Assembly (NCBI RefSeq): GCF_029017505.1
Contig: NZ_JAQGEI010000046.1
Coordinates: 1-36,148 of the forward strand
DNA length: 36,148 nt
Direction of reading: 5' to 3'
Source: Sedimenticola hydrogenitrophicus
GTDB lineage: Bacteria > Pseudomonadota > Gammaproteobacteria > Chromatiales > Chromatiaceae
Shown here piece by piece: positions 11,911-28,800 of this stretch. Below the pieces are notes generated by a model, which saw nothing but the letters and a program-made list of their open reading frames with translations, was not told the origin of the DNA and did no database searches. The first letter of the stretch is position 1. Each line of letters begins with the position of its first letter. A program made the translations under genes and the position numbers.

Positions 11911-12057
11911 CGTAACCCGGATCTTCTTGTTGTCTGACAGTTCTGCTATGGCGTTCGGGGCGGCAAACTCCAGCGCGGCTATGCATACTTCGTCCACGCC
12001 AAGCGCCTCGGCAATGTGCTGCTCAATCTCAGATAAGGGGGTGTCGTGAAAGCTCAT
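11869..12057 (-). CDS. Small uncharacterised reverse-strand protein
   Basis: 62 residues from the ATG at 12057; the frame continues to 12099, but that longer form would run further into the next forward gene. The protein is acidic and balanced (LSEIEQHIAEALGVDEV, then KKIRVTLRIVVAEVDG) and has ordinary coding third positions on this strand. It overlaps the 3' end of the forward gene before it by 42 bases and the 5' end of the next by 12. The ribosome site is weak (AGGT 10 bases away). It is the third lone reverse gene in the early region. Function unknown, existence fairly likely. Confidence 0.55.
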   Translation of the reverse strand: MSFHDTPLSEIEQHIAEALGVDEVCIAALEFAAPNAIAELSDNKKIRVTLRIVVAEVDGADR

Positions 12058-12432
12058 GTCAAAGTACCTGCTTGGTTGGGTGAAATCGTCAAGTATCACA
12101 TGGAACGGCTGCGCCTGCTGAATCTGGATGGCGCGCCGGCCGGAGTGGCGATGGGTGAGGTGACCCGCATCTGGGCCGAGACCTTGGCAGGTAGGAATAT
12201 CGTCTGGGACAAGGAGCTAGATACGCTGCGCCTACACCGGGGATTCATGGAGCTGGCGGCCAACTGCGACCGCTGGCCCTCCCCGAACATGCTGATGCAG
12301 AGATTGCCGTCCCGCCCACAACGTCAAGCCCTGCCCGCCCCCCAGATCACCGAGGAGCAGCGGCAGCGCAACCTGCGGGCGATCCGCTGCATGCTGCGCG
12401 ACGCCCTGAACCTGAAGGGGCGGCCGCAATGA
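12046..12432 (+). CDS. Uncharacterised phage protein upstream of Mor
   Basis: 128 residues from GTG 12046 after AAGGGGG. It is mostly helical (VPAWLGEIVKYHMERLRLL, VTRIWAETLAGRN, ELDTLRLHRGFMELAANC), with a proline-rich linker and a basic C-terminal helix (EEQRQRNLRAIRCMLRDA). The stop overlaps the start of the Mor gene. No family is recognised. The fixed place before Mor suggests an early phage protein rather than an insertion. Confidence 0.78.
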   Translation: MKAHVKVPAWLGEIVKYHMERLRLLNLDGAPAGVAMGEVTRIWAETLAGRNIVWDKELDTLRLHRGFMELAANCDRWPSPNMLMQRLPSRPQRQALPAPQITEEQRQRNLRAIRCMLRDALNLKGRPQ

Positions 12433-12860
12433 TGGGCGCCCCCGGCCAGATCCCCGCCCACTACCTGCCGGACTCCGTCCAGGAGTTGATCGAGGTGGTC
12501 GGCCTGGCGGCCACCCTGGTGATCGTCGAAGAACGAGGCGGTATCCGTCTGTGCGTGCCCGCCAGAGCGACGCCCGACCACTGGCTGGCGGACCGCATCG
12601 GTATGCCAGCGCTGACCGCCCTGGTGGAGCGCTATCAGAACGAGGAGATCGAGGTAGCCCGCTGCGTCGCCGCTCTGAGGGCGGTGCAGGAGCAGCAGAT
12701 CGTCCGTGAGGCCGAGGCCGGGGCCTCCAACGCCACCCTGGCGCGTCGCTACGGCTACACCGAGCGCGGCATCCGCAAGCTGCGCCGGCGGGTGGAGGGC
12801 GAGCTGGCCGACGCCACTGCCCAGGGCCAGCTGTTTGCGTTCGAGACAGCGGGCGGGTAA
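12429..12860 (+). CDS. mor: Mor/C-family transcription activator
   Basis: 143 residues, the last gene of the early operon. It matches the Mor family of Mu: an N-terminal dimerisation part (LPDSVQELIEVVGLAATLVI, then a strand containing GGIRLCVPARA), HWLADRIGMPALTALVERYQ, and a C-terminal helix-turn-helix at about 90-121 (NATLARRYGYTERGIRKLRR). Mor and C of Mu activate middle and late promoters by binding a dyad about 44 bp before the start site. Only one member of this family is visible here, so it may serve both steps. Matching dyads occur at 12898-12909 and 21022-21033. Confidence 0.93.
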   Translation: MMGAPGQIPAHYLPDSVQELIEVVGLAATLVIVEERGGIRLCVPARATPDHWLADRIGMPALTALVERYQNEEIEVARCVAALRAVQEQQIVREAEAGASNATLARRYGYTERGIRKLRRRVEGELADATAQGQLFAFETAGG

Positions 12861-12897: not shown

Positions 12898-12941
12898 GGA
12901 ACCCGTTCCCCCGTCTATCCCCCGCGTCATCCGTCTAGCAT
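12898..12941 (+). promoter_or_regulatory. Putative Mor-activated middle/lysis promoter
   Basis: The dyad GGAACCCGTTCC (12898-12909) is followed by CCCCGTC and, further on, a -10-like TAGCAT (12936-12941). The dyad centre is 35 bp from the -10 centre, which puts it near -44, as in the Mor-dependent promoter of Mu. There is no good -35 hexamer, as expected for an activator-dependent promoter. The same dyad, flank and spacing recur upstream of the protease gene. Binding by the Mor protein encoded just upstream is inferred. Confidence 0.65.
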
Positions 12942-12947
12942 GACGGC

Positions 12948-13478
12948 ATGAGCCGCATACAGCTATCCGCAAACTTCTACCTGGACGAGTTCACCCGCTC
13001 GCAGACCGCTGCGCGCCGGGGCATCGATATGACCGTCAGCGAGTTTGGCGTGGTCTATTTCACCCTGCGCCGCCTCTGCCGGGGCGTATTGCAGCCGTTG
13101 CGTGACGCGCTCGGGCCCGTGCATATCACCTCCGGCTACCGCCCGCCCAAACTCAACCGCATGATCGGCGGAGCGCCTACCTCACAGCACCAGTACGGCC
13201 AGGCGGCCGACATCGTGGTCACCGGGCACACCCCTCTGGAGGTGGCGACCTGGCTGCGCGAGCACGTCACCGGCTACGACCAGCTGATCCACGAGTTCGG
13301 CCAGTGGGTGCATGTCTCCGTGCCCTCCGCCGCACTGCACGAGCCGGCACGCCTGGAGCGGCTGACCGCCATCAAGGTGCCGCGGCTGATCGGCAAACCC
13401 CGCACCGTCTATGTCCCCGGGCTGCGCACCCTCGAACAGGCGCGGCAACTCCATCTCAACCACAAGGAGGCCGCCTGA
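12948..13478 (+). CDS. M15-type peptidase, putative endolysin
   Basis: 176 residues. The zinc peptidase pattern of M15A is present: SGYR at 62-65, SQHQYGQAADIVV with His81 and Asp88, and WVHVSV with His122; Glu116 may be the catalytic base. Enzymes of this family cut peptide bonds in peptidoglycan. Followed by a membrane protein and a holin, it is the likely endolysin. There is no signal peptide, so it needs the holin to reach the wall. The ATG lies only 6 bases beyond the putative -10 and has no Shine-Dalgarno, so initiation may be leaderless; no later start would leave the domain intact. Confidence 0.9.
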   Translation: MSRIQLSANFYLDEFTRSQTAARRGIDMTVSEFGVVYFTLRRLCRGVLQPLRDALGPVHITSGYRPPKLNRMIGGAPTSQHQYGQAADIVVTGHTPLEVATWLREHVTGYDQLIHEFGQWVHVSVPSAALHEPARLERLTAIKVPRLIGKPRTVYVPGLRTLEQARQLHLNHKEAA

Positions 13479-14029
13479 TGGATTGGTCACTGTTTGTCCA
13501 GCAACTGCTGCTGGTTGTGTTACTCGGCGGTGCCGACCGTTTGCGCGGCGACCACTACCACCTGCTGGTCTCGGGCTACATCGACCGACTGATCTACGGC
13601 TGGCTGATGGCCGCCCTGTTCGGTCACCCCTGGGACGGGCTGACCATGCCGATAGTCGCGACCATGTACCTGGGCATGATCCCGGGCTGGGGCGAGGCCA
13701 TCGGCTGCGCCCTGACCGGCCGTCAACCCGATCCCGAGCGCGCGGCCTGGTGGCAGCGTGGGCCGCTACTGCATAACGCCTGGCTGGCCCTGTTCGCGAG
13801 GGGTGGACTTTGGGGGGGCGGGTTCGTGCCGCTGGCCCTGTTCGATCCGCGCCTGCTGCTGGCGCTGCCCGCCTATACGGTGGCCATGCCGCTGGCGGTG
13901 TGGATCACGGTGCGGGCGGAACGCCCAGCCCCGGGCAACTGGGAGCACCAGGAATACCTGCGCGGCTGGATAGCCGGCGCGCTGATCGTCGGCGGGCTCT
14001 GGTTGGAGGGTTGGTATGGATTGGTCTGA
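13478..14029 (+). CDS. Multi-spanning membrane protein in the lysis block
   Basis: 183 residues; strong ribosome site AAGGAGG and a TGATG overlap with the endolysin. At least four hydrophobic segments are visible: near 5-20, 38-58, 103-130 and 128-148, plus one at the C-terminus (GWIAGALIVGGLWLEGWYGL). Charged loops contain RQPDPERAAWWQRG. It is probably an inner-membrane lysis accessory or second holin, on position alone. It begins with the same four residues (MDWS) as the next gene, perhaps by chance. Confidence 0.78.
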   Translation: MDWSLFVQQLLLVVLLGGADRLRGDHYHLLVSGYIDRLIYGWLMAALFGHPWDGLTMPIVATMYLGMIPGWGEAIGCALTGRQPDPERAAWWQRGPLLHNAWLALFARGGLWGGGFVPLALFDPRLLLALPAYTVAMPLAVWITVRAERPAPGNWEHQEYLRGWIAGALIVGGLWLEGWYGLV

Positions 14030-14603
14030 TATAAGCGGCGTCGTCGCCAAGGCGGCGCCGCTGGTCGGCACCCTGCTGCTCGGCCCGGCCGGTGCCGGTG
14101 TCGGCGCCCTGGTGGCCTCGGCCCTGGGCACGGAGGCGGACCCCGCCGCCGTGGCCACCGCGCTGCAAGACCCGGCCTCGCTGGAGCGGATCCGCCAGAT
14201 GGAGCTGGACAACAAGGCGGATCTGACCCGCATGCACCTGGAGGCCGAGACCGCCCGCCTGGCGGAGGTCAACCAGACCATACGGGCCGAGGTGGCGAGC
14301 AATGACCCCTATGTGCGGCGCTGGCGGCCGACCTACGGGTATCTGACGGCGCTGGCATGGTTCGTACAGATGACCGGATTCACGCTCATCCTCGGCCTGG
14401 TCGCCTATAAACACCCCGGTGATCTGGCCGCCGTGGTCGGGGCGCTGGGTAGCGTACTGACCGCCCTACTCGGTCTGTGGGGTATCGCCCTGGCGGTGCT
14501 GGGCGTCAACGTGACCAGCCGCTCCAAAGACAAGCAGGTACAGGCCGGCCAGGAGCCGGCACCCGGCCTGATGGCCGCCCTGGCAAAGCGGCTGGCGGGG
14601 TAG
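14016..14603 (+). CDS. Holin of the three-transmembrane (GTA_holin_3TM) family
   Basis: 195 residues, starting inside the end of the preceding gene after GGAGGG. One hydrophobic segment lies at 12-40 (LVGTLLLGPAGAGVGALVAS), and two more at about 108-130 (LTALAWFVQMTGFTLILGLV) and 138-165. Between them is a charged helical stretch with the typical DPYVRRWRPTYGY motif of this family. Holins open the inner membrane to release the endolysin; the neighbouring M15 peptidase supports this. Confidence 0.88.
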   Translation: MDWSDISGVVAKAAPLVGTLLLGPAGAGVGALVASALGTEADPAAVATALQDPASLERIRQMELDNKADLTRMHLEAETARLAEVNQTIRAEVASNDPYVRRWRPTYGYLTALAWFVQMTGFTLILGLVAYKHPGDLAAVVGALGSVLTALLGLWGIALAVLGVNVTSRSKDKQVQAGQEPAPGLMAALAKRLAG

Positions 14604-14606
14604 ATC

Positions 14607-14834
14607 ATGGATGACGCAGACCGCGCCGACCGGCGCATCGAGCGCTTTGATGCCGACGCCCTGGCCGCGCAACAGGAGCGCGCCCGGCAGCAGGTGACCC
14701 CCTACCTCATCGATGGCGCACCCCACTGCCCCGACTGCCTGGAGCCGTTGCCGGCACACCGCCAGGCCGCCGGGATCTGTGTGGGGTGCCTGACGGACCG
14801 GGAACAGCAGCAGCGGAGAGTATATGGAAGTTGA
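14607..14834 (+). CDS. TraR/DksA-type C4 zinc-finger protein
   Basis: 75 residues. Cys41, Cys44, Cys58 and Cys61 form the C4 zinc finger of the DksA/TraR family (APHCPDCLEPLPAHRQAAG, ICVGCL), with a preceding coiled helix (DALAAQQERARQQV). Short members such as TraR bind RNA polymerase in the secondary channel and mimic ppGpp plus DksA. Mu-like phages usually carry one at this position. It overlaps the next gene by 11 bases. Confidence 0.9.
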   Translation: MDDADRADRRIERFDADALAAQQERARQQVTPYLIDGAPHCPDCLEPLPAHRQAAGICVGCLTDREQQQRRVYGS

Positions 14835-15162
14835 TTATGGCGCGGCGCGGTTCTGGTTTGACGTCGCGCACCTGGGTGGGCTGTTTGGGCTGGGGGTTTA
14901 TACCTGGATTGTGAATCGCACCAAGGCCAACCGCGGCGCGATCGACCGGGTTGATTCCCGGGTATCCGCCATTGACCTACGGCTGAGCCAGTTGGAGACC
15001 GACGTGCGTCACCTGCCAGACCATGACGATCTGGGCGAGATCCACGAAAAGGTCAACACCATCGCCGGCAGCATGAAGAAGATCGAAGGGCACCTGGACT
15101 CACTGAATGGCAATTTTGCCCTGCTGTTCCAGGACCGGCTAAATCAAGGGGGTAGTAAATGA
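14824..15162 (+). CDS. gp25-like DUF2730 protein
   Basis: 112 residues with one N-terminal membrane segment (HLGGLFGLGVYTWIVN) followed by a long coiled coil (DSRVSAIDLRLSQLETDV, EKVNTIAGSMKKIEGHLDSL). This matches the DUF2730 proteins equivalent to Mu gp25, located before the packaging genes. Topology suggests an inner-membrane anchored cytoplasmic or periplasmic rod. It may act in lysis or control of packaging; not established. ATGA overlap with the next gene. Confidence 0.88.
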   Translation: MEVDYGAARFWFDVAHLGGLFGLGVYTWIVNRTKANRGAIDRVDSRVSAIDLRLSQLETDVRHLPDHDDLGEIHEKVNTIAGSMKKIEGHLDSLNGNFALLFQDRLNQGGSK

Positions 15163-15455
15163 GTCTTGCGGAACTGGTCATCGAAAACCAACGTCTGGTG
15201 GTGCTGCAAGTGTTGGAAGAAGACGTCGATTACGCCCAGAACGAGATCGTGCTGCAGGGCGCGCTGTCGGCGGTGGGTCACGGCATCAGCAGCGATCGGC
15301 TGCGCACCGAGCTGGCGTGGCTGACCGAGCAGGGTCTGATCAGCGTCGAAAACGTGGCCGGTCTGCAGGTGGCCAAGCTGACCCGCCGAGGCGAAGACGT
15401 GGCCCTGGGGCGCAGCCGCGTGCCCGGCGTGGCGCGGCCGCGACCGGGGGTGTGA
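15159..15455 (+). CDS. gp26-like protein with winged-helix fold
   Basis: 98 residues. It matches the Mu gp26 family (VpaChn25_0724-type): IENQRLVVLQVLEEDVDYAQ at the start, GHGISSDRLRTELAWLTEQG as recognition part and LISVENVAGLQVAKLTRRGE as wing. These resemble ArsR-type winged helices and stand directly before the small terminase. DNA binding during packaging is a reasonable but unproved role. Confidence 0.9.
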   Translation: MSLAELVIENQRLVVLQVLEEDVDYAQNEIVLQGALSAVGHGISSDRLRTELAWLTEQGLISVENVAGLQVAKLTRRGEDVALGRSRVPGVARPRPGV

Positions 15456-15459
15456 CCTG

Positions 15460-16026
15460 ATGTCCCGCCCCAGCACCATCGACCTGCTCCCCACCGAGGT
15501 GCGCGACGCGCTCCACGCCTGGCTGCGCGATCCCGCCATCACCCAGACCGAGGCCACCGACCGGCTGAACGCCCTGCTGGGTGAGCTGGGTGCCGAGCAG
15601 CAGGTCAGCCGCCACGCGGTGAACCGTTACGACCTCAAGATGCGCGAGGTGGGCGAACGCCTGCGCCAGTCCCGCCAGGTGGCGGAGGCCTGGGTGGGCA
15701 AGCTGGGTGCCGCGCCCCAGGGGCAGCTGGGCCACTTGATTAACGAAACCCTGCGCACCCTCGCCTTCGAGCTGACCATGAAACTGGCCGAAGGTGAACT
15801 GACCGAAGAGAGCATGCCGGCGATCATCGACCAGCTGAAACACCTGTCGCTGTCCGTGGTGCGCCTGGAGCGGGCCTCGTCGGAGAACGTCAAGCGGGAG
15901 GAAGATATCCGTAAGCAGGAGCGGGCCAGGGCGGCCGAAGCGATGGCCTCCACCGCCAAGCAGTCCGGCGTCTCTGCTGAGACCATCGAGCGCATCCGCC
16001 GTGACGTGCTCGGGATGGCGGAATGA
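15460..16026 (+). CDS. gp27-like DUF3486 protein, probable small terminase
   Basis: 188 residues. It carries the DUF3486 pattern: IDLLPTEVRDALHAWLRD, then SRHAVNRYDLKMREVGERLR, and a long helical C-terminus. The N-terminal part looks like a helix-turn-helix; the family is taken as the small terminase of Mu-like phages on account of its place before gp28. It would recognise the packaging start at the left end of the phage DNA. Its stop overlaps the large terminase start. Confidence 0.9.
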   Translation: MSRPSTIDLLPTEVRDALHAWLRDPAITQTEATDRLNALLGELGAEQQVSRHAVNRYDLKMREVGERLRQSRQVAEAWVGKLGAAPQGQLGHLINETLRTLAFELTMKLAEGELTEESMPAIIDQLKHLSLSVVRLERASSENVKREEDIRKQERARAAEAMASTAKQSGVSAETIERIRRDVLGMAE

Positions 16027-17507
16027 CACGCCAGCACAAGGGCAACGCCAAGTGCATCCCGCCTAACCCGGAGGCCATTTTCCTACCGTACCAGGAGAAG
16101 TGGATCAAGGATCGTTCACGGCTGAAAGTGATGGAGAAGAGTCGTCAGATCGGCCTCTCCTGGAGTACCGCCTATCCGCTGGTGGAACGCACCGCGGCAA
16201 CCTCGGCCCGCTATGATCAGTGGGTTTCCTCCCGCGATGAGATCCAGGCGCGCCTGTTCCTGGAGGACTGCAAGATGTGGGCGCAGGCGTTCAACCTGGC
16301 CGCCGAGGATCTCGGCGAGGTGGTGATCGACCCGAAAGAGAAGCTGACCGCCCTGGTGCTGCGCTTCGCCTCCGGCCGGCAGATCTACTCCATGAGCTCC
16401 AACCCGGATGCCCAGGCGGGCAAGCGCGGCGGCCGCGTGCTGGACGAGTTCGCCCTGCACAAGGACCCGCGCAAGCTCTGGACCATCGCGTATCCCGGTC
16501 TGACCTGGGGCGGCCAGATGGAAGTGATCTCCACCCATCGCGGCAGCCGCAACTTCTTCAATACCGACCTGGTGGTCGAGGCGCGGGAGAAAGGCAACCC
16601 CAAGAAGATTAGCCTGCATCGGGTCACCCTTGAAGAGGCCTTAAACCAGGGTTTTCTGTTCAAGCTGCAGCAGGCCCTTCCGGCGGAGGCCGAGCAGCAG
16701 GCGATGGACGAGGCGGAGTACTTCGATTTCATCAAGTCCGGTACCGCCGATGAAGAGTCTTTCCTCCAGGAGTACATGTGCGTGCCGGGCGACGACGATG
16801 CGGCGTTCCTGGAATACGACCTGATCGCCTCCTGTGAATACATCAAGGGCATCCCCTGGGAGATCACCCTGGAGGAGGCGCAATCCGGCAAGCGTGAACT
16901 CTATGCCGGGCTCGATATCGGCCGCACCAAGGACCTGACCGTGCTCTGGATACTGGAGCGCCTGGGCGATGTGCTCTACACCCGCAAGATCATCGCGCTC
17001 AAGAACATGAGCAAGCCGGATCAGGAGAAGGTGCTCTGGCCGTGGATTGCCTGTATGCGCCGCACCTGCTTCGACTATACCGGGCTCGGTATCGGCTGGG
17101 GCGACGATGCCCAGGCGAAGTTCGGCACCTACCGCGTGGAGCTGGTCACCTTCTCCGCCCAGGTCAAGGAGCGCCTGGCCTACCCGGTACGCGGCGGCAT
17201 GGAAGACCAGCGCATCCGGATACCCTACGACCCGGTAGTCCGCGCCGATCTGCGGGCGGTGACCAAGACCACCAGCGCCGCCGGCAACATCCGGTTTACC
17301 GCCGAGCGCTCCGCGGCCGGCCACGCGGACCGCTTCTGGGCGTTGGGCCTGGGAGTGGAGGCAGCCTCCAGTCCGGCGGCGGAGATCGACTACCAATCCA
17401 CCGGACCCCGTGCCGCCTTCGCGGGCGACGGTGCCACCGCCCCGGCCATTCATGATGATATCGGCTTCGGCGTGGTGGGCGGCAGCAATGACTTCGGAGG
17501 TTTCTAA
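16023..17507 (+). CDS. Large terminase subunit (Mu gp28-like)
   Basis: 494 residues. The ATPase has a non-classical Walker A KSRQIGLSWS (39-48) and Walker B GGRVLDEF (Asp141, Glu142), then a coupling motif near VISTHRGSRN. The nuclease half starts with YAGLDIGRTKDLT (Asp298), and HADRFWALGLGV near 440 supplies another acidic ligand. It pumps DNA into the prohead and cuts it; in Mu, packaging is headful and takes some host DNA. All motifs look intact. Its stop (TAA) overlaps the portal start. Confidence 0.96.
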   Translation: MTRQHKGNAKCIPPNPEAIFLPYQEKWIKDRSRLKVMEKSRQIGLSWSTAYPLVERTAATSARYDQWVSSRDEIQARLFLEDCKMWAQAFNLAAEDLGEVVIDPKEKLTALVLRFASGRQIYSMSSNPDAQAGKRGGRVLDEFALHKDPRKLWTIAYPGLTWGGQMEVISTHRGSRNFFNTDLVVEAREKGNPKKISLHRVTLEEALNQGFLFKLQQALPAEAEQQAMDEAEYFDFIKSGTADEESFLQEYMCVPGDDDAAFLEYDLIASCEYIKGIPWEITLEEAQSGKRELYAGLDIGRTKDLTVLWILERLGDVLYTRKIIALKNMSKPDQEKVLWPWIACMRRTCFDYTGLGIGWGDDAQAKFGTYRVELVTFSAQVKERLAYPVRGGMEDQRIRIPYDPVVRADLRAVTKTTSAAGNIRFTAERSAAGHADRFWALGLGVEAASSPAAEIDYQSTGPRAAFAGDGATAPAIHDDIGFGVVGGSNDFGGF

Positions 17508-19039
17508 TGGCTGCTGACTATGTACAGCTCAATTCCGGCGTGGTGATCACCGAGGCGCAATTCGCCGAGATGGCCAGCGTGCGCCCGGAGCTGCGCGAGA
17601 TCGCCACCACCCTGGACGGCCGCGACATCACCCGCGGCTACGTCGATCCGCTGGCGCTGGCCCAGCCCCAGGACTCGGTGCTGATGACCCGTGCCGCCGG
17701 CGACTACAACGCCTACCGGGAGCTGCTGCGCGACGACCAGGTGGCGGCCACCTTCCACCAGCGCCGCCTGGCGGTGATCTCCCGCGAGTGGGAGGTACGC
17801 CCGGGCGGTGAGCGTCGCCAGGACAAGGCGGCGGCGGAGTTCCTGCGGGAGCAGCTGGACCACATCCGCTGGGACGCGGTGACCGACAAGATGCTGTATG
17901 GCGTGTTCTACGGCCACGCGGTGGCCGAGTGCCTATGGGCGCGGGACGGCCGCCAGGTGGTGCTGGATGCGGTGCGGGTGCGCGATCGCAAGCGCTTCGG
18001 CTTCGATGGGCGGGGTGATCTGAAACTGTTGACGATGGCCAAGCCCGACGGCGAGGTGTTGCCGGAGCGCAAGTTCTGGTTCTTCCAGACCGGCGCCGAC
18101 CATGACGATGACCCCTATGGGATGGGCCTGGCCCACTGGCTCTACTGGCCGGTGTTCTTCAAGCGCAACGGTATCAAGTTCTGGCTGATCTTCCTGGAGA
18201 AGTTCGGCCAGCCCACCAGCGTGGGCCGCTACGAGACCAATGCCACCCCGACCGAGCGGGCCAAGCTGCTGCAGGCGCTCCGCGCCATCACCACCGACTC
18301 CGGCATCAGCATTCCCCAGGGCATGGAGATCGAGCTGCTGGAAGCGGCGCGCTCCGGTACCGGGGACTATACCGCCCTGTACGATCACATGGACCGGGCG
18401 ATCGCCAAGGTGGTGCTGGGCCAGGTGGCCAGCACCGAGGGCACCCCGGGCAAGCTGGGCAACGAGGAGCTGCAGCAGGATGTCAGGCTGGACCTGGTCA
18501 AGGCCGACGCCGACCTGGTGTGTGACTCGTTCAATCGGTCCGTGGCGACCTGGCTCACCCAGTGGAACTACCCCAACGCCGCCACGCCCCGGGTCTGGCG
18601 CAAGACCGAGGATTCCGAAGACCTGAACAAGGTGGCCGAACGGGAGAAGCACGTCTTCGATATGGGCTACAAGCCCACCCTGCGCCACGTGCAGGACACC
18701 TATGGCGGCGAGTGGGAGACGATCCAGCCGCCTCCATCGGGTGGGCCGGAACCCGAGCCGGCGCCGGAATTCGCCGAGGCGGCGCGTGCTGCCGACATCC
18801 TGCCGCCCGCTGCCCAAATTGCCGGGCGCCTCGAACGGGAGGCCGAGCCCGCAATGGCCGAGTGGCTGGCGCGCATCGAGGCGATGTTGGAAGCGGCCGA
18901 CAGCCTCGAGGAGTTTCGGGAAATGCTGTTGACCGCTTACGCCGACCTGCCGGAGGCCCCGCTCGCTGGCGTGTTGGGGGATGCCCTGGAGGTCGCCGAG
19001 GCCGCGGGCCGCTTCGATGTGGAGCAGACCGGTGCCTGA
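17507..19039 (+). CDS. Portal protein (DUF935, Mu gp29-like)
   Basis: 510 residues, in line with Mu gp29 (512). The N-terminal ITRGYVDPLALAQPQDS and the core YNAYRELLRDDQVAATFHQR are typical, as is EKFGQPTSVGRYETNAT in the middle. The dodecameric portal is the DNA gate of the head and binds terminase. The last 70 residues are acidic and helical and seem less conserved. The minor head gene begins within its last codons. Confidence 0.95.
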   Translation: MAADYVQLNSGVVITEAQFAEMASVRPELREIATTLDGRDITRGYVDPLALAQPQDSVLMTRAAGDYNAYRELLRDDQVAATFHQRRLAVISREWEVRPGGERRQDKAAAEFLREQLDHIRWDAVTDKMLYGVFYGHAVAECLWARDGRQVVLDAVRVRDRKRFGFDGRGDLKLLTMAKPDGEVLPERKFWFFQTGADHDDDPYGMGLAHWLYWPVFFKRNGIKFWLIFLEKFGQPTSVGRYETNATPTERAKLLQALRAITTDSGISIPQGMEIELLEAARSGTGDYTALYDHMDRAIAKVVLGQVASTEGTPGKLGNEELQQDVRLDLVKADADLVCDSFNRSVATWLTQWNYPNAATPRVWRKTEDSEDLNKVAEREKHVFDMGYKPTLRHVQDTYGGEWETIQPPPSGGPEPEPAPEFAEAARAADILPPAAQIAGRLEREAEPAMAEWLARIEAMLEAADSLEEFREMLLTAYADLPEAPLAGVLGDALEVAEAAGRFDVEQTGA

Positions 19040-20288
19040 CCCCCAGCCATCCGTTACCAGTGGCGTATTCAAGCGGCCGTTTGCCGAACAGGTCAGCTTC
19101 TTTCGCGGCAAGCTCGGCAACCTGGTGCCCAGCGAGCGCTGGGATGATCTGCAGAAAGGCGCCCACGACAGCGGGTTCATGGTGGCCGGCGCCCAGAAGG
19201 CGGACTTGCTGAGTGACCTGGCCGGGTCGGCGGATCGCGCTGTCAGCGAGGGCAAGAGCCTGGACGCCTTCCGCCAGGACTTCCGCGCCCTGGTCGAGCG
19301 CAACGGCTGGACCGGTTGGACCGGCGAGGGCAGTAAAAAAGGCGTCGCCTGGCGCACCCGCATCATCTATCAGACCAATGCCAAGACCAGCTACAACGCC
19401 GGGCGCTATGCCCAGCTACACGAGGGCGGTTTCAAATACTGGGTGTATCACCACAACGACTCAGTCAAACAGCCGCGACCCAAACACCTGGCCTGGGATG
19501 GCCTGACCCTGCCGGTAACCCACGCGTTCTGGGATACCCACGCCCCTGCCAACGGCTGGGGTTGTCAGTGCTATGTCAGCGGCGCCCGCTCGGAGCGTGG
19601 TGCCCGGCGTCTGGGGGGTGACCCGGACAAGGCGCTGCCCAAGCACTGGAACACCACCGACCCCAAGACCGGCGCGCCGGTCGGCATCGACAAGGGCTGG
19701 GACTACCAACCCGGGTCCACCGTCAGCGATACCGTGCGCGCAATGGCGGCCAAGACCCAGCAGTGGGACTACACCCTGGCCAAGGCCTACATGCAGGGCG
19801 TGCCGGAATCGGTGCGCGACAGCCTGGCCACCTCTTACCGATCGCTGCCCTCGGTGGCGGCCGACACCCGCTTGTATGCCCAGCGCGTCCTGGAGGAGCG
19901 GACGCAACTGGATATTCCGCCGTACCGGACGCTGGGGTTGCTGACGGCTGACGATATCACGCGCATCGAGGTGCTGCTGGGCAAAGATGTGGCTGGGTTC
20001 GATTACGCGCTTGACGCGTTCGCGGTACGCCACATTGAGGGGCGGCACGGCAAGGAGGCAGAGACCCGCTCCGGTCAGCGCGGGGTGACTGCCAAGGATT
20101 ACGAGGTGTTGCCGCAACTCATCAACGAAGGGGGCCAGCTGGTGGCCGCCGGTAAAGCGACGAAGACGGGCAATCCGCTGGTAAAACGACGGCTAACCCT
20201 GGGCGGCGAAGGGTACGAGGCGGTGTTCGAGCTGCGAAACGGGCGCAAGATGCTCGCGTTGCAGTCATTCTATATTATAGAGAAGTGA
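19032..20288 (+). CDS. F: Minor head protein (Mu F-like) with C-terminal nuclease-like domain
   Basis: 418 residues from GTG 19032, preceded by GGAG at 8 bases; an ATG at 19017 is possible. Residues 20-190 are the SPP1 gp7/Mu F domain, with WVYHHNDSVKQPRPKH and a His/Cys cluster (WDTHAPANGWGCQCYVSG). The last 110 residues (305-418) form a separate unit containing AVRHIEGRHGKEAE, a central segment and FELRNGRKMLALQSFYIIE. This order of RH, GRHG and a closing basic strand pair fits the phage Barnase/EndoU/ColicinE5/RelE-like (PBECR) nucleases reported as fusions to minor head proteins. The head part is sure; the nuclease call is inference from pattern only. Confidence 0.9.
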   Translation: MPDPQPSVTSGVFKRPFAEQVSFFRGKLGNLVPSERWDDLQKGAHDSGFMVAGAQKADLLSDLAGSADRAVSEGKSLDAFRQDFRALVERNGWTGWTGEGSKKGVAWRTRIIYQTNAKTSYNAGRYAQLHEGGFKYWVYHHNDSVKQPRPKHLAWDGLTLPVTHAFWDTHAPANGWGCQCYVSGARSERGARRLGGDPDKALPKHWNTTDPKTGAPVGIDKGWDYQPGSTVSDTVRAMAAKTQQWDYTLAKAYMQGVPESVRDSLATSYRSLPSVAADTRLYAQRVLEERTQLDIPPYRTLGLLTADDITRIEVLLGKDVAGFDYALDAFAVRHIEGRHGKEAETRSGQRGVTAKDYEVLPQLINEGGQLVAAGKATKTGNPLVKRRLTLGGEGYEAVFELRNGRKMLALQSFYIIEK

Positions 20289-20362
20289 CTCGGTTCGTCC
20301 CCGGACCACAACGCCCGTGACGGTTCGTGGTATGAGCACGACGGTCCGATGTCCGAACCGAG
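20289..20362. repeat. Nested inverted repeat between minor head and morphogenesis genes
   Basis: The 74 bases right after the stop of the minor head gene open with CTCGGTTCG (20289-20297) and close with CGAACCGAG (20354-20362), a perfect 9-bp inverted repeat. Inside is a second pair, CGGACC (20302-20307) and GGTCCG (20343-20348), enclosing a 35-base loop with ACCAC (20306-20310) and GTGGT (20327-20331) near its edges. There is no T-run, so it is not a simple terminator. A tRNA was considered and excluded. It may be an RNA structure acting in processing or translation, or a scar of inserted DNA. Confidence 0.65.
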
Positions 20363-20380
20363 ATAGAGAGACTATAGCAC

Positions 20381-20842
20381 ATGATCACGATCGAATTCGA
20401 AGCCCAGCCGGTGCTGACCGCCCTCAGCCGGCTATTGCAGGCCGGGGCGGACCTGAAACCCGCCTATCAGGATATCGGCGAGTACCTGGTGCGTTCCACC
20501 AAGCAACGGGGGGCGGACGGCCTGGCCCCGGACGGTACGGCCTGGGCGCCCCTCTCCCCCGTCACCATCGAACGCAAGGGACACGACACACCCCTGGTCG
20601 GCGAGTCAAAGCGCCTGCTCTCGGAGATCCACTACCAAATAACGGCCGACGGTGTGGAAGTCGGCAGCGCGCTGGAGTATGCCGGCACGATGCATTTCGG
20701 TGCCGCGAAGCACAGCTTCGCCGGTGGCCAGACCCCCTGGGGCGATATCCCCGCCCGTGAGATCGTGGGGTTGTCCGAGGATGACGGCGCGGCCGTGCTC
20801 GACATTCTGCAGGAGCACCTGGAAGCGGCGGTGGGAGGGTAA
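20381..20842 (+). CDS. G: Phage virion morphogenesis protein (Mu G-like)
   Basis: 153 residues of the virion morphogenesis family. Marks are LQAGADLKPAYQDIGEYLV, the SPVTIERKG region, LLSEIHYQITADGVEVGS, and a late GDIPAREIVGLSEDDG motif. In Mu, gpG is a minor structural/tail-completion protein. The ribosome site before the ATG is weak (GAGAG at about 12 bases), so translation may depend on the stem-loop upstream. It is the last gene before the second Mor-type promoter. Confidence 0.92.
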   Translation: MITIEFEAQPVLTALSRLLQAGADLKPAYQDIGEYLVRSTKQRGADGLAPDGTAWAPLSPVTIERKGHDTPLVGESKRLLSEIHYQITADGVEVGSALEYAGTMHFGAAKHSFAGGQTPWGDIPAREIVGLSEDDGAAVLDILQEHLEAAVGG

Positions 20843-21072
20843 ATCAGCATTCGCCCGGAGAGGCCCGCAGAGGCCGCCAGGGGCGCGCACCGCTACCACG
20901 GCCTGGCGTCGAACCTCTTAAACGTTTTGAGGGGATTTTAAACGGGTCTCGCGAACCATTGCCCACCACCCCTGACCCTGATAGTCTGTTATCTACCGGT
21001 TCCAACCTGAATCACTCCCCCGGAACCGGTTCCCCCGTCACATCCCGATGCGCTCCCGGTACTGTAGGCCCC
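20843..21072. other. Non-coding gap between G and the protease gene
   Basis: No plausible gene lies in these 230 bases. They hold an A/T-rich near-palindrome (20914-20932, CCTC..AAACGTTT..GAGG), then the second Mor-type promoter. In related Mu-like Pseudomonas phages this same interval, between G and I, is where anti-CRISPR genes sit. Here that slot is empty of coding sequence. Confidence 0.6.
21022..21065 (+). promoter_or_regulatory. Putative Mor-activated head-gene promoter
   Basis: GGAACCGGTTCC (21022-21033) is a perfect 12-bp palindrome followed by CCCCGTC. Its centre lies exactly 35 bp before the centre of a -10-like TACTGT (21060-21065), the same geometry as at 12898-12941. A direct copy of its right part, ACCGGTTCC, lies 29 bp upstream (20996-21004). 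Mu has a C-activated promoter (PI) at the equivalent position. Control by the Mor-family protein is inferred. Confidence 0.68.
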
Positions 21073-21090
21073 ATGTATGGACATCCCCAC

Positions 21091-22231
21091 ATGAGGCCAC
21101 CCGTGCCCAAGCCGATCAGCATCTTCCGCCCTGGCCGCCATACCGCCATGAGCGGCGCGGTGCTCAATTTCTCCGAGGGCGACCTGGCGGCCTCCGCCAA
21201 CGCCTACGACCCGGCCCTGCACGAGGCGCCCCTGGTGGTCGGTCATCCGACCCACGACGCCCCGGCCTACGGCTGGGTATCCAAGCTACAGTACCGGGAG
21301 GGTGAGCTGGAAGCGGAGCCGCACCAGGTCGATTGCTGAAATGGTCGATAAAGGCCGCTTTAAGAAGGTTTCAGCCAGCTTTTACCCGCCCACCCACCCA
21401 GCCAACCCGGTGCCCGGCGTCTACTACCTGCGCCATGTGGGATTCCTCGGCGCCCAGCCGCCGGCCGTCAAGGGCTTGAAGGCGGTTGAGTTTGCCGACG
21501 AGGCGGACGGCATCGTCACCATCGAGTTCGGTGAGACGGAGCGCTGGGGCTGGCGCGCCGTGGCCAACCTGCTGCGCAACGTCCGCGACCGCTGGATCGA
21601 GAAGGACGGCCTGGAGTCGGCCGACCAGGTCCTGCCCAACTACCTGATCAACGATATCGACCGTGCCGGCGAGGCTGAAGAGTCCGCCGACGCATCCCTA
21701 TCCCCCGCCTATTCAGAAAACGAGGAGCCGATCATGCCCGACCCGATCCAGCCAACCGCCGAACAGACCGCCGCGTTTGCCGAGCGTGAAACGCAGCTCA
21801 GTGCCCGCGAGCAGGCCATTGCCGACCGTGAGGCCGCCCTGGGCGACCAGGAACGCCAGCGGACCGAGCGCGAGGCGGCCGACTTCGCCGAGCAGCTGGC
21901 GGCCGCCGGGCGCATCCTGCCGCGCCACCAGGCGGGCGTGGCGGCGCTGCTGACCCGCCTGCCGGACGAGGCGCTGGCGTTTGGCGAGGGCGACGACGCC
22001 TACAGCGGCACGGCGGGGGAGTTCCTGCGGGAGTTCCTCGGCGGCTTGCCGGAGCAGGTGGACTACGCCGAGCGCTCCGCTGCCGAGCCGGAGACGGCGA
22101 CCGTCGATTTCGCGGCCCCGGCCGGTTACACCGTGGACAAGGAACAACTGGCGCTGCACAACAAGATCCTGGCCTACCAGGAGAAGCACAGCGTCGACTA
22201 CGTCACTGCCGCACAGATCGTGGGCGGCTGA
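21091..22231 (+). pseudogene. I: Phage protease/scaffold (Mu I-like), frameshifted
   Basis: The N-terminal part (ATG 21091 or, better supported by GAGG, GTG 21103, giving PKPISIFRPGRHTAMSGAV) runs through GELEAEPHQVD and then meets TGC TGA at 21334-21339. The rest of the protease resumes in the +1 frame as IAEMVDKGRFKKVSASFYPP. Family members read QVD-P-A-(I/F)-AEM at this point, so the two residues PA and the frame are lost. A loss of 8 bases between two GAT copies would explain it exactly. In Mu this protein matures the prohead. Unless a +1 ribosomal shift occurs, for which no slippery site is seen, no protease is made. Confidence 0.85.
21734..22231 (+). CDS. Z: Capsid scaffold protein (Mu Z-like), internal start in the protease gene
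   Basis: An ATG at 21734 preceded by GAGGAG at ideal spacing opens the last 165 codons of the protease frame. The product begins MPDPIQPTAEQTAAFAERET and is a long charged coiled coil (SAREQAIADREAALGDQERQ), then a Gly/Ala/Phe-rich part and a helical C-terminus (NKILAYQEKHSVDYVTAAQI). Mu makes its scaffold Z the same way from the 3' part of gene I. It lies downstream of the frameshift, so scaffold synthesis should survive. Confidence 0.85.
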   Translation: MPDPIQPTAEQTAAFAERETQLSAREQAIADREAALGDQERQRTEREAADFAEQLAAAGRILPRHQAGVAALLTRLPDEALAFGEGDDAYSGTAGEFLREFLGGLPEQVDYAERSAAEPETATVDFAAPAGYTVDKEQLALHNKILAYQEKHSVDYVTAAQIVGG

Positions 22232-23964: not shown

Positions 23965-24384
23965 ATGCCCTACGCCACCACCCAGGACCTGATCGACCGG
24001 TTCGCCGAGGCGGAGCTGATCCAGCTCACCGACCGGACCGGCGCCGGCGTCATCGATACCGACGTGCTGGATCGCGCGCTGGTCGACGCCGACGGCGAGA
24101 TCGACGGTTACCTCTCCGGACGTTACGCGCTGCCGCTGGCCGCGGTGCCGCCGGTCCTGGTGCGGGTGGCCTGTGATATCACCCGCTACCACCTGTATGA
24201 CGACGCGGTCGTGGATCAGGTGCGCACCCGTTACGAGGATGCCCGGCGGTATCTGGAGAGCGTGGCCACCGGCAAGGTGCAGCTGGGCCTGCCGGCCAGT
24301 GCCGGCGCGGTAACCGTCAGCGGTAGCCCCGAGGTGGATGCGCCGGCGCGGATATTCACCGGCGACACGCTGGAGGGTTTCTAA
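23965..24384 (+). CDS. gp36-like DUF1320 head completion protein
   Basis: 139 residues of the DUF1320/gp436 family: YATTQDLIDRFAEAELIQLT, VDADGEIDGYLSGRYALPL and ACDITRYHLYDDAV are hallmark segments. These proteins form part of the neck, like the adaptor of other long-tailed phages. It starts 3 bases after the previous stop and is directly followed by the next gene. Confidence 0.92.
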   Translation: MPYATTQDLIDRFAEAELIQLTDRTGAGVIDTDVLDRALVDADGEIDGYLSGRYALPLAAVPPVLVRVACDITRYHLYDDAVVDQVRTRYEDARRYLESVATGKVQLGLPASAGAVTVSGSPEVDAPARIFTGDTLEGF

Positions 24385-25872: not shown

Positions 25873-28800
25873 ATGGCTGATCTCAATCTCGCGCTAAAAA
25901 TCGCCATTGCCCAGACCGGGCTGGATAACGTCAGCTCGCTGGTCGGTGAGCTGAAGAAGGCGGGCGTCGAGACCGATAAGTTCGAGCAGGAGGCGGCCGA
26001 CCTCGGGGCCGAGCTGAAAAAACTGGGTAGCGACAGCGGTATGATTTCCGCATTTCGCAAACTCAAGACCGAGACACAGGGTGCCGAGCAGGCGATGGCC
26101 GCCGCCAAGGACAAAACGGCGGCGCTGTCGCGCGAGCTGAAGGCAACGGAGGCCCCGACCAAAAAGCAGCAGGCCGCATTTGAGCGGTCACGCAAGGCGG
26201 CCCGGGCCGCCGCCCAGGCCTATGAGAATAACCGCCTGTCACTGCAGAACATGCGCTCGCAGATGCAGCAGGCCGGCATAGCCACCACCAACCTGGCAGA
26301 ACACCAGGTCCGGCTGCACCAGACGCAAGACGCGCTCACCCGGCGCGGTCAGGCCCTGGCAAAATCCCTGAAATCCACCGCCTGGGAAGCCCGCTCCAGT
26401 GCGTCGGCCATCGACACCAATGCCGCCGCCGCGGGGCGCGCTGCCAAATCATGGGGCACATTGCGCACCGCCGCTGCCGCCGCGGGCGGATTCCTGGTGG
26501 CAAAGGTCGGCATCAGCACCATCACCAGCCTGCTGCGCAATTTGCGCAACAGCATCCTGGCCGTTTCCGAGACCGGCGGCAAGTTCGAAGCGCTGCGCGT
26601 CCAGATGGATACGCTGTTCAGGTCGAACGAGAAAGGCGGCGCGGCCGTCGAGTGGATTAAGACCTTTACGGCAAAGACGCCGTATCAACTAGACCAGGTC
26701 ACGCAATCATTTATCAAGCTCAAGGCGATGGGGATGGACCCGATGGACGGGTCATTCCGCGCCATCGCCGATCAGGCATCGTCGCTGGGCGCCAAGGGTG
26801 AGACGCTAGAGGGCATCGTGCTGGCCCTGGGTCAGGCGTGGAGTAAGCAGAAGCTACAGGGTGAGGAGGCGCTGCAGCTGATCGAGCGCGGCGTACCAGT
26901 ATGGGATCTGCTGGCCAAGGCCACCGGACGCAACGCCGCTGAGCTGCAGGAGATGTCCGCCAAGGGGCTACTGGGCCGCGACGCCATCCGCGCCCTGATG
27001 GACGAGATGGGGCGGAACAATCTCGGCGCCTCCGAACGCGCCATGAGGACCCTCAACGGCCAGTTGTCCAACCTAAAGGACAACTGGACAAACTTCCTGA
27101 ATCTGATCGCCGACCAGGGCGCGCTGGCCTATTTCAAGGGCGAACTCGAATCGCTCAATCAGAAATTTGCCGAGTGGGCAAAAAACGGCGAACTCAAAAA
27201 ATGGGCGCGGGAAGCGGCGGAAACCATCATCAGCCTGGGCGGGTCCATCCGGTCGACGATTGAGACCGTCGCATCGATGTCAGGCGCGTTTAAATTCGCC
27301 GGCAACGCGATCGCGTTTTTCTGGAACTCGATACAGATCACGATCAAGGGCATCGGCTCGCTGTTCCTGGACACGGCGGCGCTGATCACCCTGGGCCTGT
27401 CGAAAATCACCTTCGGCGACCTCTCGAAACAGTATGAAGCCGAGGCCAAAAAACTCAGCGCCACCGCCGCCGGCCTGCGCGACGGCATCATCACCGACGC
27501 CCGCGAGGCCCGTGCCGCCCTATTGGGCATGGGCGAGGCCGCCGGCCTGGTCAGCGAAGAGGTGGTCAAGGGCCAGGAAGAGGTTGCGGCGTCTACAGAA
27601 AAAACCAAGGCCGCCCTCACCGAAACCGAACAAGCCGCCCAGGCCGCCGCCGAAAAGGCCCAGGCCCTGGCGGATGCCTACAAAGAGCTGGGCATCGAGA
27701 CCGAGGAGTCCCTCCGCCAAACCGGCCAAGCGACCGTGGATGCGTTCCGGCAGATCGTGGAGAGCGGCACCAGCGGTGTGAACATGCTCAACGCGTTTGA
27801 CGCCGCGCTGAAAAAGGCGGGTGATGCGCAGACCATCAACGCCCTGAAGATCGCCCTATACGATGCGTTCGATACCGGCAAGATCAGCCTCGATGCCTAC
27901 CTCAAGCGCATGGATGAGGTGGACAAGCGCCTGGGCGCCATCGGTGAGACGGTGCAGAACTCCGAGGAGGCATTCAATCATTTTGGCCTCACCAGCGTCG
28001 AGGCGCTGCAAAAGATCGCGGACAAGTCCCGCGAGATGTTCGACGCCCTGGAGCAGTCTGGGCAGGCCACGACCGAGCAGCTGGCGGCCGCGTTCCTGAA
28101 ATATGCTGAGGATGCTATCCGCGCCCAGGACGGGGTTATAGACAAGCAGCTGAAGGCCAAGGCCGCCGCCCTGGGCTTGACCACGGAGATCCGGGTCCTG
28201 GCAGAGCAGTACAAACAGACCGGTGCATTCGGCCGTGAGGCGTTTCGCATTGCAGCCCACGAGGCCCGAGCGCTACGCGATGCCATCAACGAGATCAACC
28301 AGGCCACCACCCGTTCCGAGCTGGCCGACCTGGCCAATGAGGCCGCTCGGCGCTGGCGCGAGGGCAAGATCAGCGCCAAGGAGTACGGCGAGATCATTGA
28401 TGAGATCAATCTACGCCGCCGTGAATTGATCAAGTTGACCGAGGAACAGGTGACCGCCGAACAGCAGGCGACCGAGGCCGCCGGCAAGACGGCGGAGCAG
28501 ATCGAGCGTCAGGCAAGCGGCAAGGCCCGCGCGGGCGGCGGCAAAAAGAAGTCAGCTGGCGGTGGTGGAGGGGAAACCTACACGCGGCAGGAAATCGCTT
28601 GGGTCGGCGGTGCAAAGGATCTGATCCGCCGCGACCTCGCCGCCGCCGGGATCGGCGGCGAGATAGTGGCGCAGACCCTGGCGCAGTTCGACAAGGAGAT
28701 CAAGGACCCTTCCAATCTGCGCGGCCTCAATGGCCTCGACGGCTATAAAAAATACTACGATTTTCTGCTCGATCGGGCCAACTCGGCCATCCGTAACGCG

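Follow-up and report, generated by a model that had tools for sequence, protein, structure and literature searches.

Paired GGAAC-NN-GTTCC dyads as putative operators of a single Mor-type late activator in a Mu-like phage contig of Sedimenticola hydrogenitrophicus

How does a Mu-like phage turn on its late genes when only one activator of the Mor/C family is visible in it? The question is raised by contig NZ_JAQGEI010000046.1 of Sedimenticola hydrogenitrophicus, a single whole contig of 36,148 nucleotides (nt) of a Mu-like phage, which was analysed at its full length and is called the window here. It holds two GGAACNNGTTCC dyads, at 12898 and 21022, with a -10-like hexamer 27 base pairs (bp) downstream of each. 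An earlier note on this DNA had read the pair as the regulon of a single Mor-type activator, and the comparative evidence given below supports that reading: taken as a whole, a late regulon with one activator, and with the dyads as its operators, is very probably the best explanation of the locus. The features on which it turns are the following.

12429..12860, + strand: gene for a Mor/C-family activator of 143 amino acids, immediately ahead of the lysis operon (phrog_836 'late transcriptional activator', E 1e-32)
12898..12909, + strand: putative activator dyad 1, GGAACCCGTTCC, its centre at -44.5 from the predicted start; kept in relatives
12936..12941, + strand: -10-like hexamer TAGCAT of the predicted lysis promoter, at a conserved spacing, with no -35 element recognised
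12948..13478, + strand: endolysin gene of the peptidase M15 type (phrog_894 endolysin, Pfam Peptidase_M15_3)
21022..21033, + strand: putative activator dyad 2, GGAACCGGTTCC, a perfect palindrome by sequence check
21060..21065, + strand: -10-like hexamer TACTGT of the predicted head-gene (I) promoter, at a conserved spacing
21073..21339, + strand: gene of the head maturation protease (I), first part (phrog_976, E 2e-31 over profile positions 32-106)
21302..22231, + strand: remainder of that protease gene, read in another frame (phrog_976, E 5e-79 over profile positions 109-392)

When checked against the sequence, the dyads, their tails and the hexamers were all where the earlier note had put them, with CCCGTC following both dyads and 35 bp from dyad centre to hexamer centre at both sites. 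Its placing of the dyad near -44, as for Mor in Mu, agrees with the computed centre of -44.5; the Mor site of Mu is centred at -43.5, in a promoter without a -35 element, according to the accessible part of PMC4390567. The dyad pattern that it gave, GGAACCSGTTCC, occurs at four places in the 5,131,343-base genome, two of them inside this 36-kb contig, which makes chance a poor explanation; at the other two places no TANNNT stands at the matching position on either strand. A scan of the window with up to two mismatches was uninformative (8 matches vs 6.8 expected). Between 12300 and 21400, a sigma-70 scan in which both hexamers were required found no promoter, and a terminator scan found 3 terminator-like sites where 4.2 were expected.

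By protein profile, the product of 12429-12860 belongs to the Mor/C activator family (PF08765 / PHROG 532 and 836). Its alignment was matched by hhalign to Mu Mor at 95% and to Mu C at 93% probability, and a sequence-profile search of solved structures placed Mu C (9l0x, 9vw8) and Mor (1rr7) at the top, at E 1-2e-4. The AlphaFold2 model of the monomer has a mean pLDDT (predicted local distance difference test) of 82.8 and is helical in its C-terminal part. That a single Mor/C protein would be visible was borne out over the whole window genome, in which the activator is the sole PF08765 match; when the Mor protein was searched for in 55 genomes of host relatives, its own included, the window genome alone matched.

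Relatives of the activator were gathered from IMG/VR, GTDB genomes and phage records, with 11 closer rows of a 16-row Mor alignment that was itself too diverse for the collection scan. Absence of the dyad in close relatives had been set beforehand as a test of the regulon, and a recognisable dyad site is present in 35 of the 41 records with a Mor-family relative, four of the 35 having degenerate sites only. The 41 comprise L005-L016 (12), L039-L059 (21), seven phage records and the window; five of the seven (YPCBV-1, B23, KS10, MP38 and EBPR siphovirus 4) were taken from 122 phage records with an activator match, and D3112 and B3 were added by accession. The second site lies about 7-14 kb past the first in these relatives. 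Third sites exist in some of them, a caveat on the regulon reading: in L005 (record L020) a further dyad stands before a gene whose product, in our reading, resembles the window 23965-24384 protein; B23 (L035) has a further dyad at 28423, between two tail genes, which perhaps resembles Mu's PP; and in L118 and L134 a further dyad stands before a gene, the product of which starts like a DNA-circulation protein.

An unbiased count of the promoter geometry is given by the exact dyads. For 24 of these in phages, NANNNT stands 26-28 bp downstream in all 24, TANNNT in 18 and ATG at the matching place in 14, as against 5, 0 and 4 when 18 chance dyads from host DNA with locus sequence are read strand by strand, in 36 readings (L021 was left out of the 24, its shown stretch being equal to L018, and L073, which shares a contig with the L058 phage and lies about 13 kb before the mor gene of that phage, was taken as host). 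A wider table of 49 sites in 28 phages, partly selected with the -10 and with the -10 picked as the best of four offsets, has it at offset 26, 27 or 28 in 13, 33 and 3 sites, for which the dyad centre falls at -43.5, -44.5 or -45.5; 46 of the 49 are thus at -43.5 or -44.5. Near-duplicates (L011, L014, L044, L045, L047, L050) were left out of this table, as was MP38, a relative of D3112. The sites of L009, L041, L056 and L057, site 1 of L013 and site 2 of L058 came from scans requiring a -10, and GGCGGCATG led to the D3112 pair; since all of these were selected with a -10 or ATG, their -10 and ATG are not independent evidence. With a DNA-only pattern of dyad, -10 and ATG, blind to proteins, 17 of the 120 stretches listed code for Mu-like phage proteins (called by tblastn at E 1e-5), and 0 of the 120 listed for the control with reversed letters. 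As a census this composite pattern was rejected as too loose, with at least 120 matches for target and control alike, so that only the Mu-like share was used.

The two sites of one phage are also matched to each other. Over 21 such pairs the 20-bp identity is 0.83 vs 0.65 for shuffled partners, a value reached in 0 of 10000 shuffles; within the GGAAC group (13 pairs) it is 0.83 vs 0.76, again with 0 of 10000, the 12-mer alone giving 7 of 10000. Both sites of L059 have the same off-consensus GTTCT half.

The earlier note had likened the positions of the two sites to those of the Mu lysis and I promoters, and the relatives bear this out. Downstream of the 28 first sites, a lysis gene is recognised in 17, in 12 by comparison with known ones and in a further 5 by its family (L005 and L016 with phrog_894, L010 with amidase phrog_822, L015 with endolysin phrog_7, L055 with endolysin phrog_315); at the other 11 the downstream gene was unrecognised or not compared by family. 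Behind the 21 second sites stand protease or scaffold and head genes in 19: a protease relative in 16, and in three (L012, L013, L058) a scaffold protein together with a major head protein from other families (phrog_283 or phrog_212). At the remaining two (L005, L015) the locus end was reached or no family comparison was made. Since lysis and head genes of unrelated families lie behind the same dyad, the operator would be common to non-homologous genes, and appears to be kept while lysis and head genes are exchanged.

To judge from the aligned activators, the letters of the dyad and the recognition helix change together, over few independent switches. GGAAC phages have the helix TERGIRK; those with TGAAG or TGAAC have TERQVYT (YPCBV-1), TERRVWE (B23) or SDRWIWE (D3112, MP38). 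The simple rule that GGAAC means TERGIRK is weakened by L107, of another family, where GGAAC goes with TDRTVRK; the pairing that stands is of RK with GGAAC and of YT or WE with TGAA. As a separate observation, this further family (L107, L118, L126, L133, L134, L157, L173, L181) has, beside its GGAAC dyad, a TAACCT-like -10 that is immediately preceded by a run of GCGCGCGCG.

Set beside known systems, the window promoters would work like the Mor promoter and belong to the Mor/C kind, differing from the Mu operator in spacing, letters and targets. With Mu Mor and Pm, as described in the accessible part of PMC4390567, they share a Mor/C-family gene at the end of the early region, a dyad of two 5-bp repeats near -44, and a -10 without a -35; the layout of a Mor/C-dependent promoter (dyad near -43.5, -10 present, -35 absent) is found here with a predicted start. 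The 5-bp repeats of the window do not stand 6 bp apart as in Mu Pm, and the half-site spacing of 2 bp makes its operator a variant rather than the Mu Pm operator itself. Mor of Mu targets the middle operon coding C, whereas the window activator would target late operons. In this it resembles Mu C, which in the part of PMC4461284 available serves Plys, PI, PP and Pmom, lysis and head operons among them, as one activator from a site upstream of the -10; unlike in Mu, there is no second activator gene in the window, the operator letters are other ones, and the predicted starts are leaderless where Mu lys and I appear, in our reading, to have leaders.

Closer parallels are found among the relatives. 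The Pseudomonas phages D3112 and MP38 (Casadabanvirus) have one phrog_836 activator, and both late promoters of D3112 have CGTTGAACCCCTTCC, then CAGGAT or CACCAT, then GGCGGC-ATG; they differ in the outer base of the dyad, a T, and in the recognition helix, and MP38 has a degenerate site 1. In Chromohalobacter phage YPCBV-1 and Alteromonadaceae phage B23, the lysis and the protease genes are each preceded by one of two matched sites, both of them leaderless-like in B23; these two phages differ in their TGAAG/TGAAC dyads, in the 20-nt leader of YPCBV-1 at the protease and in the further site of B23 at 28423. Promoters at matching map positions of D3112-like phages were proposed earlier by promoter-prediction programs (PMC4378225), the words dyad, palindrome, inverted repeat and leaderless being absent from the accessible part of that text; a shared operator or leaderless late mRNAs are described in no paper found by the literature searches, most subscription papers lying outside their reach.

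One Mor/C gene was counted in the window genome, one in each of 14 relatives and two in the Mu control (two matched stretches in one reading frame, as in G059, G061 and YPCBV-1, were taken as one gene), a count weakened in that its nine IMG/VR records may be fragments. The pair of Mor/C genes in one phage that marks the two-step cascade of Mu was thus not found, and one such gene with sites before both lysis and head operons suggests that the cascade is probably a single step here, as the earlier note had surmised. In the mechanism that we propose, the two dyads would be the operators of the phage's sole late activator, the Mor/C-family protein 12429-12860, whose gene is the last one ahead of the late region. 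As a dimer it would bind GGAAC-NN-GTTCC, the centre of which lies about 44 bp before the start, and replace the missing -35 contact, and host RNA polymerase would then fire two late promoters, one for lysis and packaging (start 12948) and one for the head genes (start about 21072), with both late mRNAs probably leaderless. One protein would do both steps that Mu splits, Mor to Pm and then C to the late promoters. The gene, dyads, spacing, conservation, within-phage matching and single activator gene are features of the sequence; binding, activation and the exact 5' ends are what is predicted from them, and the comparative data give strong circumstantial support for the Mor protein as the binder.

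Several observations weigh against this picture. The window protein scores 23.8 bits with Pfam Mor (PF08765), just under the cut-off of 24.9 that all 15 other records searched pass, Mu among them, and Foldseek with the activator model gave no significant match, 1rr7 ranking third (E 0.66) and 9l0x fourth, the pair at E 0.66-0.78. The half-sites of Mu Pm are 6 bp apart in a 16-bp element; those of the window and its relatives are 2 bp apart in a 12-bp element. No such dyad was found in six of the 41 records (L008, L043, L051, KS10, EBPR siphovirus 4, B3), the sequence present after mor being 0.4 kb in L008, 2.8 kb in L043 and 0.7 kb in L051. L009, L011, L056 and L057 have one good half-site only, and in L009 and L011 a relaxed scan of the remaining record found no second site. 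B3 (L084) has another dyad before its protease, TTTTCGG-N4-CCGAAAA at 19837, of which one copy was found. Shared ancestry of the phages inflates all of the counts, the shuffles ignore kinship, and of the 17 Mu-like stretches listed for the DNA-only pattern L201 looks fortuitous and at least one (L136) is from a contig already used. The B3 protease ATG, at 19887 behind that phage's own dyad, is itself leaderless-like.

Where transcription begins has to be weighed separately, since all start positions are predicted from the position of the -10. In the window, the listed open reading frame (ORF) of the endolysin has no start codon earlier than ATG 12948, which is exactly the predicted +1, and the ATG of the protease first part, 21073, is one base past it (its frame closes at 21339), so that both late mRNAs would probably be leaderless. 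At 25 of the 49 tabulated sites a long ORF has its start codon between -1 and +2 relative to the predicted +1, often as TAnnnT-GGCGGC-ATG; D3112 has the leaderless layout at both late promoters, L123 has the same layout of dyad, hexamer and ATG at a protease 63% identical over the aligned part, and in L154 the lysis gene has a leader of 2 nt. The other 24 of the 49 sites, which count against leaderless starts, are not so arranged (L005 site 2 and L015 site 2, where the locus ends with no start, and L042 site 1, where the ATG opens a short ORF only, are included), and Mu lys and I have, in our reading of the sequence, leaders in which a ribosome-binding-like stretch precedes the ATG. These would suit a real regulon whose transcription starts farther upstream, with ordinary leaders, TAnnnT + 6 nt + ATG being a by-product of compact genomes. 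We consider this unlikely: groups as distant as the window, D3112, B23 and L055 share an ATG at the predicted +1, TAnnnT-GGCGGC-ATG often comes without a recognisable Shine-Dalgarno, and the MP38 protease has to start upstream of where it is annotated. In MP38 (L037, NC_011611), a reading from ATG 19114, at predicted +1 or +2, covers the Mu-like_Pro domain from its position 1, but one from the annotated start, 19240, which appears to be about 42 codons too late, covers it only from position 18. Literature searches, judged from listings, found no paper on leaderless mRNAs in Mu-like phages.

A dyad of this size would suit many dimeric regulators, and the gene for one small protein (12046-12432, phrog_8159) adjoins the activator gene upstream; the dyads might then be sites at which that protein, or some other host or phage regulator, acts on the late operons as repressor or activator, with Mor itself at work elsewhere. 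This is decidedly improbable, given that the layout, in which a -10 without a recognised -35 follows a dyad at -43.5 to -44.5, is that of Mor, that the dyad letters follow the Mor recognition helix, and that the hosts are so varied that a host factor would need to covary with the phage. A LexA-type reading (GAAC-N4-GTTC) was dropped, the dyad spacing here being 2 and not 4. The dyads might also be RNA elements, terminators or processing hairpins at operon ends, rather than protein operators: in L010, L012, L015, L053 and L058 the dyad lies within a longer hairpin followed by a T-run that fills the space before the -10, with fold z of -4.1 to -5.8, a strong hairpin with T-run in five of the six such stretches folded (the sixth, L089, folded without its T-run, has z -1.5). 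At the two window sites, L055 site 1 and L005 site 2, the dyad is intact and there is no unusual fold (z +0.5, +1.5, +0.1 and -0.2), which argues that the hairpin is an addition in one subgroup and not the basic function; a consensus terminator scan of L012 found none, perhaps owing to a stem mismatch, and terminators would leave both the fixed distance to the -10 and the switch of letters unexplained. We give a purely RNA role hardly any credence.

For a broad Mu-like branch, D3112 included, we are inclined to favour, with some reserve, a wider scheme in which one Mor-type activator would control the entire late programme through an operator that co-evolves with its recognition helix and is kept through lysis and head gene exchange, in which the first gene of the late operons would be translated from leaderless mRNAs, and in which, in one subgroup, the operator would also be the terminator hairpin of the upstream operon, with DNA and RNA roles. 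The late regulon gives a predicted operator, start sites and a set of controlled operons for single-activator Mu-like phages, offers a natural series for reading the DNA code of the Mor family, and would explain late gene starts missed by annotation, such as that of the MP38 protease.

The rest of the window is in keeping with a Mu-like gene order: an S24-type repressor, Mu-type transposase and B protein precede the activator, the endolysin from 12948 is followed by the terminase subunits, the portal and F-like and G-like proteins, and after the second dyad come the protease, the major head protein and the tape measure. At 1-36148 it is about one Mu-like phage in size, with TG at its left end and CA at its right, like the ends of transposing phages. 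Just 3' of the second promoter, the protease gene (21073-22231) is split over two frames, by sequencing error or decay. An extra half-dyad, ACCGGTTCC, lies at window 20996-21004, about 25 bp upstream of the second dyad. Short motifs containing TTTAAA are found between the G and I genes at window 20937-20947 and also in L034 (18514 and 18545), L035 (17718) and L085 (17894 and 17915); the equivalent G-I stretch in Mu adjoins the annotated gyrase cut site.

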